Shown piece after piece: positions 16,308-35,131 of a stretch of DNA of 64,000 nt. The stretch lies in assembly GCA_903847205.1 (NCBI GenBank), contig CAINDA010000012.1:1-64000 (forward strand). Reading direction: 5' to 3'. Every line of letters starts with the position of its first letter. The stretch's first letter is position 1. Below the pieces are notes generated by a model. It searched no databases, was not told where the DNA came from, and was given only the letters and a program-made list of their open reading frames with translations. Source of the stretch: an uncultured Bacteroidota bacterium. GTDB lineage: Bacteria > Bacteroidota > Bacteroidia > 2-12-FULL-35-15. The position numbers were made by a program, and so were the translations under genes.

Positions 16308-19300
16308 TTACTGAACTATAATCTTTCTATTCGAAAGAGGTTTTATTTCATCACTTATCTGCACAAAATAAATTCCTTTAGGAATATCAGAGAGGTCAAT
16401 TTCATTTGCTGTCCGCTGTTTCAATTCGGATATATAAATCTGTTCGCCGAGTATATTGTGAATTTTCACTTCACATTTACTATTTGAAAGCTGTATGCTG
16501 CTCAACTGAATTGTAAATTTTCCATTAGAAGGGTTAGGCGAAATGGTCACTGACATGCTGTTGAATAATTCATTTATACCTGTTGCCTGTGAAGCGGTAT
16601 TTGATTTTGAAGAACTGCGGGTTGTACTCTGCCTTGTTGAAACACAGGGTGCGGGTCTTTTTGCTTCAACTATGTAACGTGCGTTTGGCAGAACATCGGT
16701 GCTGGTATAAGTTGTGATGCCGAAACTTACAGAGTCTATCGCATGCCAATTGCCATTGCCTAAATTATCACGCAGGATGCGGTACTGCGGAAATGTGAAT
16801 CCTGAATAATCATTCCAGCTTAAGTTTACGCCTTGAGGAAATGCCACCCCAAGCTGAACATGCACTGTTTGATGTTCTGCACTTAGAGCACTTTCGTTAC
16901 CGCAGGTATCCAAAACTGACAATTTATATTTGTAAGAAGTTGTATTGGGGTTGATTCCGCTGGTGTTGTCGGTGAATTCGCTCAATGCGCTGTAAGCCAC
17001 ACTGCCAATGTGAGTATAAACACTTGCTATTTCCCTGTAAACCTTGAAGCTGTCAATTGGTGCGCCGGCAGGCTTTTCCCAGACAATTACATTTTTTGTA
17101 GAAGAGCTGTCAACAGTTACCATGCAGATGGGTATTGAACTTGGTGCAACAGAGTTAATTATGGTAAGCGTATCTGAAATAAAGCATCCATTATGGTCAG
17201 TAACAGTAACCGTATAGGTTCCGCTTCCAATTCCAACTAGGCCTTGATTTGTGCTGCTATTTGACCAATGGTAAGTATAGGGTGCGGTACCTCCATTTGG
17301 AGTAATACTTGCACTTCCATTATTAGTACATGAAGTATTAGTAGTAGAAGGAGTCAGCGAGATAGAAGGGAATTGCGTAACAAGAGTATATGCAGCTGAA
17401 ACTACACATCCGTTTGTATCAGTTACTGTAACAGAATAAGTTCCGGCTGGTCTGCCTGATATTGAGTCGGCAGTATTATTATTTGCTGTTGACCAAAGAT
17501 AATGATAGGGGGCTGTGCCACCGTTTGCTGTGATGCTCGCACTTCCATTATTACTTGTGCAAATAGGATTTGTTATTGTTGGAACGAGAGATAGCACTGG
17601 GTATTGTGTAACAAGAGTATAGGCGCCAGAAATAAAACATCCATTAGTATCAATTACCGTAACAGAATAAGTTCCGGCTAAGCGGTTTGATATTGTGTCA
17701 GAAGTATTATTATTTGTTGTTGACCAAAGATAATGATACGGCGCTGTTCCGCCGTTTGCTGTTATACTTACGCTTCCATTATTATTTATACAGATAGGAT
17801 TAATAATTGTTGGAACGAGCGATAGCACTGGATGCTGGGTAACAAGGGTGAATGAATTTGAAACAGTACAGCCGTTAGTATCTGTAACAGTTACTGAATA
17901 AGTTCCGGCCGGCCGGCCGGATATTGTATCGGTAGTATTGTTATTGCCGGTCGACCAAAGATAATGATACGGCGCTGTTCCGCCAGCTGCAATAATGCCG
18001 GCACTTCCATTATTATTTGTACAGATTGGATTATTTGAGGATGGAGTTACTGATAATGCAGAAGCGGGTTGGTTAATAGTGATGCTTGTTGTTACAGAAC
18101 AGCCGTAACTTGTTTCGGTAACTGTTACAGGATAAACACCCTGTACGAGGCCTGTTCTTGATGCTGTGGTTTGCCCGCCGTAACTCCACAAATAAGTATA
18201 TATACCGCTTCCACCTGCCGCTACAACGGTGGCTGTTGCATAATCTCCATAACAAAGAATTGGTTGAGTTTCTGAAATTACGGCAGTAAGCGGAATACCA
18301 TCCTGATATTCATAAGCACCCATATCAATACGGCATACGGTTACACGTGGATTTCCTGCTTTATCGGTTGCGGGATAAGTGCCATTAGGGTCTCCTGTAT
18401 TGATACATGGCGAGTTACTTTGCAATGACCAATCAGCATTTACTCCATTATAGCCTGTTCCGCTTCCAATCGAAGGCGAAATAAATAGCGGGTCAGCATC
18501 TATGTTGTTCTGGTAAGTGCCTGTATAACTAGTTCCATTAAGTTCAAAAGCAGTTGAACCTCCCAGTACATCACAGTAATAAAAATTTGGATCACTGGGT
18601 TCATCTTCTAAAAACACTTGTGCTCCACTTGCGTTTGCGATGTTACCCCAAAAAATACAATTGCGAAATGTTGGGCTGCTTCCAGAACAATAAATTCCAC
18701 CGCCAGAGTTTGAAGCAGTGTTATTTGATATTGTGTTATTTAAAATAGTTGGATTGCTAATATTCACGCAATAAATTCCACCACCATTAAAAGCAGTATT
18801 ATTGGAAATCGTGTTGTTTGAAATGGTTGGATTGCTACTATAGCAAAAAATTCCACCAGCCGTTAAATCAGCATTATTATTGGTAATGGTGTTGTTTGAA
18901 ATTATTGGACTGCTCGCAAAGCAGGCAATTCCACCACCCACCTCATGAGAAATGTTATTTGATATTGTGTTATTTAAAATGGTTGGATTGCTACTATTAT
19001 GGCAAAAAATTCCAGCACCGAATTTATGAACGATTGGTGTCATATTATTGGAAATTATAGAGTTGGTTATGGAAGGGCTGCTGCCATTGTCACAAAAAAT
19101 TCCACCACCATTATTATAAGCTACACAGTTTGAAATACAACAATTAGATATAATTGCTTTAGAAAAGGCATTGAAATAAAATGCCCCTCCATTATCATCG
19201 GGTGAAGCACCTGTTGCTTTGCCATATTGCAGCTTACAAAAAACGATTTTCGAAGTATCATTGGTTGTAGGTGTATTGTCAAAACGTATTCCCCACCATC

Positions 19301-19595
19301 CATTTGTAATATTGGCAGCAGTAAAAACAATTGTATCAGCAACAGTCCCAATGGCTAGCAACCGCCCCTGCACATTAAGTTTGTAATGTCCCTGAAAATT
19401 TACTGTTACACCCGGCTGAATAGTGAGAGTTGTGCCATCAACAATTTGAATACTGCCCATTATATTATATGGAGAACCTGCAAGATTCCATGTACCAGAT
19501 ACATTGCCGGCAGGTATGGATGTTTGAGCCATGGTATTTAAAGCTGAAAATGCAAAGTTTAAAGTCAGAAAGGAGAGGAGTAAATGTTTTTTCAT
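16308..19595 (-). CDS. T9SS-secreted beta-helix and SprB-repeat protein
   Basis: A 1095-residue exported protein with signal peptide ending NTMAQ. Residues ~25-95 form a capping domain; ~95-330 are right-handed parallel beta-helix coils with many NNTISNN-type turns (Pbh1-like), ending in the IDMGAYEY motif near 430. Residues ~440-815 hold five SprB repeats (GGTAPYHYLWS ... AGTYSVTVTDTNGC). A fibronectin III-like region follows, then a type A sorting domain (SPNPSNGKF ... GIYFVQI ... RKIIVQ). SprB repeats are known from the gliding adhesin SprB and other surface proteins; beta-helices often bind or cleave polysaccharide, but no catalytic residues are identifiable. An adhesin role is inferred. 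It shares its N-terminal design with the protein at 44935. Confidence 0.88.
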   Translation of the reverse strand: MKKHLLLSFLTLNFAFSALNTMAQTSIPAGNVSGTWNLAGSPYNIMGSIQIVDGTTLTIQPGVTVNFQGHYKLNVQGRLLAIGTVADTIVFTAANITNGWWGIRFDNTPTTNDTSKIVFCKLQYGKATGASPDDNGGAFYFNAFSKAIISNCCISNCVAYNNGGGIFCDNGSSPSITNSIISNNMTPIVHKFGAGIFCHNSSNPTILNNTISNNISHEVGGGIACFASSPIISNNTITNNNADLTAGGIFCYSSNPTISNNTISNNTAFNGGGIYCVNISNPTILNNTISNNTASNSGGGIYCSGSSPTFRNCIFWGNIANASGAQVFLEDEPSDPNFYYCDVLGGSTAFELNGTSYTGTYQNNIDADPLFISPSIGSGTGYNGVNADWSLQSNSPCINTGDPNGTYPATDKAGNPRVTVCRIDMGAYEYQDGIPLTAVISETQPILCYGDYATATVVAAGGSGIYTYLWSYGGQTTASRTGLVQGVYPVTVTETSYGCSVTTSITINQPASALSVTPSSNNPICTNNNGSAGIIAAGGTAPYHYLWSTGNNNTTDTISGRPAGTYSVTVTDTNGCTVSNSFTLVTQHPVLSLVPTIINPICINNNGSVSITANGGTAPYHYLWSTTNNNTSDTISNRLAGTYSVTVIDTNGCFISGAYTLVTQYPVLSLVPTITNPICTSNNGSASITANGGTAPYHYLWSTANNNTADSISGRPAGTYSVTVTDTNGCVVSAAYTLVTQFPSISLTPSTTNTSCTNNGSASITPNGGTAPYTYHWSNSSTNQGLVGIGSGTYTVTVTDHNGCFISDTLTIINSVAPSSIPICMVTVDSSSTKNVIVWEKPAGAPIDSFKVYREIASVYTHIGSVAYSALSEFTDNTSGINPNTTSYKYKLSVLDTCGNESALSAEHQTVHVQLGVAFPQGVNLSWNDYSGFTFPQYRILRDNLGNGNWHAIDSVSFGITTYTSTDVLPNARYIVEAKRPAPCVSTRQSTTRSSSKSNTASQATGINELFNSMSVTISPNPSNGKFTIQLSSIQLSNSKCEVKIHNILGEQIYISELKQRTANEIDLSDIPKGIYFVQISDEIKPLSNRKIIVQ

Positions 19596-20121: not shown

Positions 20122-20127
20122 TGTAAA

Positions 20128-20185
20128 CACCCCCTTTCGGAATTTATATCATCTTATATTTTAAGATGATGCAAAGTGCATCATC
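20128..20185 (-). promoter_or_regulatory. Mutually exclusive hairpins and strong RBS ahead of the 122-residue gene
   Basis: In the transcript direction, GATGATGCA/TGCATCATC (20177-20185 with 20165-20173, 3-base loop) comes first, and ATCATCTTA/TAAGATGAT (20162-20170 with 20148-20156, 5-base loop) second. Both use bases 20165-20170, so only one can form. The second hairpin ends about 10 bases before AAAGGGGGTG, the probable ribosome-binding site. The layout resembles a switchable leader; the ligand or trigger is unknown. Confidence 0.6.
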
Positions 20186-20263
20186 ATTGGATAAGCTGAT
20201 TAAGAGCATAAAAACAAAGCAGATGCCAAAGCAGTTTATTTAACATAAATTAGTAAATCGGAT

Positions 20264-20570
20264 GATGAAATTAACAAACGTCTGAACGTTACTCACAAAC
20301 GTCTGCGTGTTACTCAGTAGTGGGGTGATGAAATTAACGAACGTCTGAACGTTACTCACAAACGTCTTCGTGTTACTCAGTAATGCGATGATGAAATTAA
20401 CGAACGTCCGAACGTTACTCACAAACGTCTACGTGTTACTCAGTAATGCGATGATGAAATTAACAAACGCTTGAACGTTACTCACAAACGCCCGAGTGTT
20501 ACTCAGTAGTGGGATGATGAAAGTAACAAACGCTTGAACGTTACTCTATAATGGGATGATGAAACTAAAT
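20264..20570. repeat. 63-bp tandem array built from 21-bp subunits
   Basis: Units start at 20264, 20327, 20390, 20453 and 20516, exactly 63 bases apart; the last is shortened to 42. Each unit has three related 21-bp parts with cores TTAACAAACGTCTGAACG, TTACTCACAAACGTCTGCG and TTACTCAGTAGTGG. Copies differ by a few substitutions. There are no unique spacers, so it is not CRISPR. On the minus strand a frame reading SN(V/T)QTFV heptads is open except for one CAG-to-TAG change. Confidence 0.92.
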
Positions 20571-34920: not shown

Positions 34921-34930
34921 ATTAATTTAT

Positions 34931-35131
34931 TGATTTGATAATTGCTGATTTACCAATGTGCTGATGTACCAATTTGTTGATGTACCAATTTTTTGATTTA
35001 CCGATTTGCCGATTTACCGATTTATTGATTTACCAATTGGGTGATGTGCCAATTTTTTGATGCACCAATTGCTGATTTATCAATGTACTGATTTATCAAT
35101 GGCTATCTTCACATCAGCACATTGGTAAATC
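34931..35131. repeat. 15-16-bp tandem array ending in an inverted unit
   Basis: About ten copies of TGATTTACCAATTTGC-like units start at 34931, 34946, 34962, 34978, 34994, 35026, 35042, 35058, 35073 and 35089; the middle (about 34994-35030) falls into 8-bp TTTACCGA steps. The 19-bp segment at 34947-34965 recurs exactly in inverted orientation at 35113-35131, so the ends can pair. It fills the gap between the flippase start and the enoyl-CoA hydratase stop. Confidence 0.88.

Follow-up and report, generated by a model that had tools for sequence, protein, structure and literature searches.

A 21-bp tandem array upstream of an uncharacterised gene as half of an apparently undescribed array–gene pair in at least five bacterial phyla

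In this study, we analysed a repeat array located between an aldehyde dehydrogenase gene and the gene of an uncharacterised 122-aa protein in a stretch of 64,000 nucleotides (the window) from an uncultured Bacteroidota bacterium. The array is one half of an apparently undescribed array–gene pair, which occurs in at least five bacterial phyla. The pair forms a conserved module of a gene and a phased array upstream of it, in which the spacing is constrained while the sequence is nearly free. No description of such a module was found in the open-licence literature searched, and its apparent novelty is judged from this literature and from general knowledge. Conservation of the period only and the presence of arrays throughout the genome had been missed by an earlier sequence-only reading of the window, because that reading was based on one sequence.

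The window array (20260..20568, minus strand) was delimited by TRF, stacking of the units and a shuffle test, and is a non-coding tandem array of fifteen 21-bp units in strict register. On the gene strand, three unit types can be distinguished, A (GAGTAACGTTCAGACGTTTGT), B (TAATTTCATCATCGCATTACT) and C (GAGTAACACGCAGACGTTTGT), which follow each other in the order B A B C A B C A B C A B C A B and thereby mainly form a 63-bp A-B-C higher-order unit. TRF reported 4.5 copies of 63 bp with 91% match at 20261-20546, with flanking 21/42-bp rows extending to 20568. The self-identity of the array was 0.87 at lag 63, 0.49 at lag 21 and 0.53 at lag 42, while the top identity over all lags from 10 to 100 never exceeded 0.39 in 2000 shuffled arrays. 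The five units at exact 63-bp spacing described previously are the five A units in the stacked alignment; the outermost B-A-B step is only 42 bp, and the outer end falls short of a full fifth 63-mer. The distance to the unknown gene, given earlier as about 140 bases, was measured as 138 bp to the ATG. On the other side, the stop codon of the aldehyde dehydrogenase is located ~32 bp past the outer end of the array.

The spacer between array and gene (20122..20259, minus strand) is the presumed promoter region. It contains a Shine-Dalgarno-like sequence (AAAGGGGG; 20130-20137, minus strand) and, as found by direct sequence reading, a 21-bp palindrome with 9-bp arms (GATGATGCAAAGTGCATCATC; 20165..20185, without strand assignment). 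A consensus promoter scan was uninformative. Just downstream of the 122-aa gene, the region 16308-19595 encodes a protein of 1095 aa, probably a secreted one, in which beta-helix-like and PKD-like repeats are combined with a T9SS-type C-terminus; its own tandem repeats are coding.

The 122-aa protein P0001 (19753..20121, minus strand) was characterised by its ORF and translation, a family alignment and AlphaFold2. The ORF is intact and encodes a basic N-terminus (MARPKRKS), a short helix (residues 9-24), a 54-residue helix (residues 36-89) and a basic tail; the family alignment revealed a conserved EYExAGGxRxSxR motif. In the AlphaFold2 model, obtained with 34 sequences (pLDDT 89, pTM 0.56), a short helix is followed by the continuous 54-residue helix and another short helix before the basic tail. 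There was no family match in Pfam, NCBIfam, PHROG, PADLOC or PDB, a Foldseek search with the model against the PDB and a viral library gave no confident match, and no DNA-binding domain is recognisable in the protein. Since a lone helix would extend over ~80 angstroms, the model suggests that the family may work as an oligomer. That the modelled helix is near the ~71 angstroms of a 21-bp unit may be a coincidence worth testing, nothing more.

To determine how regularly such arrays accompany the gene, a scan of a species-genome collection yielding 80 named loci was used. The loci were found mostly by one protein pattern ([YF]G[KHR][DN]S[ISE]EY[EV]), and because the sample leans to close relatives and Nostoc-type cyanobacteria, protein clustering was applied. 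An array was called when, in the 600 bp preceding the gene, the lag with the best autocorrelation was divisible by 21 and reached a z of at least 6. This was the case upstream of the gene at 61 of 76 loci, compared with 1/79 control regions just downstream, 0/74 at 1.2-1.8 kb upstream and 0/76 at 1.2-1.8 kb downstream (Fisher p 2e-27). When 1.1 kb upstream was allowed, 66/76 loci had a 21n array, corresponding to 28/29 protein clusters at 70% identity and 17/18 at 60%. In a tally of non-coding tandem repeats of 80 bp or more in 618 kb of these loci, 48 of the 50 repeats up to 700 bp upstream of the gene had a period of exactly 21n, the remaining two being 41 and 104, while elsewhere only 4/14 were 21n, two of them displaced arrays of the same gene family. 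Loci with arrays belong to Cyanobacteriota, Bacteroidota, Chloroflexota, Desulfobacterota (Desulfobulbaceae) and Verrucomicrobiota. A few loci of the P0001 family are without an array, including one each from Chloroflexota (L054) and Verrucomicrobiota (L086), and at the distant homologues L044 and L046 an array was not found.

The same picture was obtained around the window. Its genome contains one paralogue of P0001, 79% identical and located on contig C24, with a 21/42-bp array 197 bp upstream that no longer aligns with the window array. A single distant homologue, from a different family within the class, has a 21-bp array with a third unit sequence 101 bp upstream, and a homologue on a megaplasmid of the cyanobacterium Kovacikia has a 42/84-bp array with a fourth unit sequence 306 bp upstream. 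No homologue of P0001 was present in 35 congeners, and in 28 congeners the aldehyde dehydrogenase orthologues (81-89% identical) are followed by neither array nor 122-aa gene. The pairing of array and gene, which the sequence-only reading had proposed for the window, is thus borne out by the locus and cluster counts, by the joint absence in these 28 congeners and by the arrays of both paralogues. As a rule that the array always stands beside a homologue, it holds for the recurring 21n period and fails for the unit sequence. The same 63-bp unit does not accompany every homologue: elsewhere in the genome a related unit occurs only on contig C44, where no homologue adjoins.

In a search of the phylum, P0001 homologues were detected in 13/396 genomes, i.e. 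~3% of Bacteroidota genomes, many of them with 21n arrays. In viral contigs, phages and plasmids, the family was absent except for one cyanobacterial 1.2-Mb megaplasmid, and with this sole match an origin from phages or mobile plasmids was rejected. The protein tree is too poorly resolved to prove horizontal transfer. Two individual loci differ in their gene: the homologue at L038 has two in-frame TGA codons and is a pseudogene, yet a short degenerate 21-bp array lies upstream, and a 257-aa frame at L045:120-994 apparently contains two copies of a distantly related domain, with a 21-bp array (3 copies) ~110 bp before the likely start codon.

The minus-strand frame of SN(V/T)QTFV heptads noted earlier in the window array is indeed open but for a single CAG-to-TAG change, and the sequence-only reading had left the choice between a decayed coding repeat and a noncoding array. 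That the arrays are decayed or live coding heptad repeats would agree with periods that are often multiples of three and with the long open frames that several arrays have on one strand. With a 21-bp unit, however, a frame is often left open by chance. In 66 arrays, open frames were found in sense in 43/66 and in antisense in 46/66, and several arrays (L062, L047, L063) lack any open sense frame. Moreover, periods of 20, 41, 62, 83 or 125 bp occur in arrays of another family and in arrays elsewhere in the window's genome, the first four corresponding to units of 20, 20.5, 20.7 and 20.8 bp beside those of 21 bp. Because open frames are as common in antisense as in sense and these periods break the triplet phase, the array is regarded as non-coding, and a coding repeat, decayed or live, as highly improbable. 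Judged by the periods, the shared denominator of the arrays is a 20-21-bp step of two DNA turns, not seven codons.

Alternatively, the array might act as RNA, either as a leader or as a separate transcript, with repeated hairpins that bind a protein or control the mRNA. The position of the arrays, always 5′ of the gene, and the palindromic units in some of them are in line with such a role, as are the 32% of 72 arrays that fold better than column-permuted controls (p<0.05; mean z -1.5). The window array (L003) is unstructured (z +0.6), as are most others; there is no obvious RNA reason for a fixed 20-21-bp DNA step, and Rfam matches in ten loci consisted of one tRNA only and none at an array. 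We therefore consider this explanation quite unlikely. RNA structure as a general explanation was rejected, since it concerns only about a third of the arrays and the window's is not among them; given the self-complementary units in this third, an RNA or cruciform role is conceivable for some arrays.

Within the arrays, the register is well kept: 50/65 linked arrays are without indels, with a mean unit match of 84%. Commonly, a core of 7-12 bp is well conserved in each unit and the remainder is variable. Between P0001-family loci the unit sequences are unrelated and only the period is conserved. A universal core motif was rejected, as AGTAAC, ATGTTG and TAAGTA were each present in 5/36 arrays, just slightly above the control maximum. 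Intrinsically curved DNA was likewise rejected, with no A/T phasing at 10-11 bp. Near-identical orthologues differ by 21 or 42 bp inside their arrays; in Flavobacterium NRK F7 and F. profundi, for example, the proteins are identical and the arrays are separated by a 42-bp internal gap. Such copy changes in whole units agree with the expansion by slippage or unequal exchange suggested earlier. Between the window and its C24 paralogue, the proteins are 79% identical and the spacers 67%, while the arrays are 51% identical, which is background identity; the C24 spacer has a shorter GATGCA...TGCATC at the position matching the 21-bp palindrome of the window.

In twelve loci of the Nostoc group, the alignment starts at the outer border of the array, continuing via a spacer of ~163-195 bp into the gene, while DNA beyond this border does not align; most of these loci are otherwise syntenic downstream. 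Array and gene are inherited in a cassette-like manner. In Nostoc sp. NMS9 (L094, compared with L097/L105/L107), a segment of ~2 kb comprising array, gene and next gene is inverted relative to both flanks, and one boundary of the inversion is the outer edge of the array. These borders can also be read differently, namely that the period is a signature of how the array is made: a host process would copy or slip in steps of two helical turns, and a cassette of array and gene would spread or persist with the array as its outer end. Besides the start of the Nostoc conservation at the outer end of the array, outside of which the DNA often does not align, the whole-unit copy changes, the unit sequences unconstrained across families and the patchy distribution (~3% of Bacteroidota genomes, 0/35 congeners) are in favour of this reading. 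Against it, the family is absent from viral contigs, phages and plasmids except for the one 1.2-Mb replicon, the Nostoc locus keeps synteny with the gene downstream of it, neither a transposase nor terminal repeats were seen, and the placement upstream of particular gene families would be left unexplained. In our view this makes an origin of the period in array making unlikely.

To see arrays beyond this gene family, 2.29 Mb (42%) of one genome, that of the window, were surveyed for non-coding tandem repeats of 80 bp or more. This genome comprises 5.5 Mb in 72 contigs, and its relatives and its gene content, with T9SS-type sorting tails, suggest Bacteroidota. Among the 74 repeats detected, 41 had a period of exactly 21n and 54 were within one base of 21n, where ~11 would be expected for periods random modulo 21; one of the 54, the 16/64-bp array of the window, is probably a coincidence. 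This second array (34924-35100; period 16/32/64 bp, TTGCTGATTTACCAAT-like units) is flanked on one side, at a distance of 4 bp, by a flippase-like gene and on the other by an enoyl-CoA hydratase-like gene. It does not have a period of 21, and no small helical protein adjoins it. Extrapolation from 41-54 arrays in 2.3 of 5.5 Mb gives ~100 arrays for the window's genome. Many 21n arrays precede, by 40-450 bp, genes for uncharacterised proteins that are 200-330 aa long; some of these proteins have a C-terminal fibronectin type III or carboxypeptidase-regulatory-like domain. The L216 family has five copies, four of them, including one pseudogene, with 21-bp arrays upstream. For the L140 family (~210 aa), arrays with differing units precede the gene at ten different loci, spread over four genomes of the genus, and several more distant members are without arrays. 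Two phylum-wide searches with other array-linked proteins gave matches in their own genome only. Since hhalign with single sequences revealed no homology between P0001 and the other array-linked proteins, the families sharing such arrays are apparently unrelated, although deep homology is possible.

Other 21n arrays of this genome adjoin ordinary genes (orphan arrays). The orphan array on C44 has A and B units in common with the window array and no homologue beside it. At this locus (L028:10380-11115), two unrelated 21n-bp arrays, TGAAGGAGACAATTGAAACAG in 20.8 copies and a 42-bp relative of the window's unit in 7.1 copies, are arranged head to tail 273 bp upstream of a gene for a 300-aa protein; a 122-aa homologue is missing there. 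Three related 62-63-bp arrays of the window's genome (L133:6715-6906, L182:6227-6422, L213:19103-19363) each lie at a distance of 24-25 bp from a small gene, on its 3′ side, and probably represent a duplicated unit. Nearly identical TTCCCTGTTCGCTGCGGAA arrays are present at the contig starts of C15 and C27 (L160:102-393, L188:102-392), so the assembly is probably broken by such arrays; the start of contig C24 also lies inside an array.

From the observed association of gene and array, the fixed period, the free unit sequence and the copy changes in whole units, we infer, tentatively and short of even confidence, a helically phased array of putative binding sites, probably for the product of the adjacent gene, with a nucleoprotein complex that controls the gene or anchors DNA. 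The module consists of a gene for a small, elongated, helical protein with basic ends and a non-coding array of roughly 3-20 units, two helical turns (20-21 bp) apart, about 70-430 bp upstream of the gene. Each unit would be one binding site, all on the same face of the helix, and the linked protein, or its oligomer formed through the long helix, would bind the units side by side in a cooperative complex. Upstream of the presumed promoter, this complex may autoregulate the linked gene, and on orphan arrays it may serve as a DNA-anchoring or DNA-organising site. Array length would change in whole units by unequal exchange or slippage and units would drift, while the spacing would be retained, as neighbouring units have to remain in phase on the helix. 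A helical phase, and not a codon phase, is favoured because units of 20, 20.5, 20.7 and 20.8 bp occur beside 21 bp.

Binding of the array by the linked protein is supported by several observations. A conserved core with a variable remainder resembles binding sites, the array is located 5′ of the gene with a spacer conserved in Nostoc, other, apparently unrelated families share the arrangement, and the protein is a single long helix, basic at its ends. On the other hand, a DNA-binding domain is not recognisable in the protein, a core motif common to all arrays is lacking (AGTAAC in 5/36 arrays), and orphan arrays stand beside ordinary genes. The significant self-complementarity of about a third of the arrays, which the model does not require, argues against a pure operator. 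Sequence-specific recognition is awkward, because the two paralogues retain 79% identity in the protein and 51% in the array. The main difficulty is thus how a little-changing protein follows a much-changing array; alternatively, recognition may be weak or shape-based, or the phase may be read by a host factor. In the latter case, a general factor such as a nucleoid protein or an RNA polymerase partner would read the phased structure, and the linked proteins would be its regulated clients. In favour of such a reader, no sequence similarity is detectable between at least three gene families that have this kind of array, the unit sequence is free and orphan arrays exist. No A/T phasing at 10-11 bp for intrinsic curvature is present, however, and among the mainly cyanobacterial loci hardly any arrays occur outside the P0001 gene family, so that we assign a general host factor a low probability.

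Free sequence combined with a fixed two-turn spacing points to a protein-DNA system recognised by spacing. Whether, across several phyla, unrelated small helical protein families are each paired with their own two-turn-phased array and form filaments at many chromosomal sites is doubtful, although a serious prospect. If true, this would be a system for chromosome organisation or regulation that is defined by spacing and not by sequence, and it would raise the question of what reads a two-turn spacing yet ignores sequence. Since only the periodicity is conserved, standard annotation or motif searches would miss the pairing. Autocorrelation at 20-21n upstream of orphan genes offers a simple search for further members, and a testable function is suggested for proteins without a family model.

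Among known systems, a CRISPR array was rejected, as the units are head to tail without spacers and the protein matches no defence family. Plasmid iterons are tandem repeats of ~17-22 bp adjoining the rep gene and bound by Rep proteins. In spacing and position, and in these only, the module resembles them, with direct tandem sites about two helical turns apart beside the gene of a candidate binding protein, and by analogy autoregulation appears plausible. It differs in that P0001 is not a Rep/winged-helix initiator (no Pfam, NCBIfam or PDB match; single-helix model), that it is mostly chromosomal with many arrays per genome, and that the unit sequences of relatives are unrelated, whereas iteron sequences are conserved. 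Plasmid partition systems of the ParR or TubR type combine centromere-like arrays with ribbon-helix-helix or winged-helix proteins and a motor NTPase. The helically phased array directly upstream of a small protein gene, which would form a nucleoprotein filament, is similar, but P0001 is modelled as a single long helix and not as one of these folds. In the loci read, i.e. beside the window, C24 and G093 copies, no gene for an actin-, tubulin- or Walker-type motor NTPase was seen; an ATPase-like 615-aa gene is located near the C24 copy (L027:6020-7867). REPs are described as dispersed palindromes of 20-40 bp that are sorted into sequence superfamilies and associated with RAYT transposases (PMC3733652). 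REPs and BIMEs share with the arrays an intergenic, sometimes palindromic nature. The arrays, in contrast, are tandem and locus-specific in sequence, have no tyrosine transposase and are linked to a protein without Pfam match. Borg tandem repeats are likewise scattered and fast evolving, in intergenic and genic positions, with perfect units free of SNPs and intergenic unit lengths of which only 14-38% are divisible by three (PMC9879509). In contrast to these, the arrays described here have drifting units (mean match 84% in linked arrays) and a fixed period of 20-21n, and they are linked to gene families.
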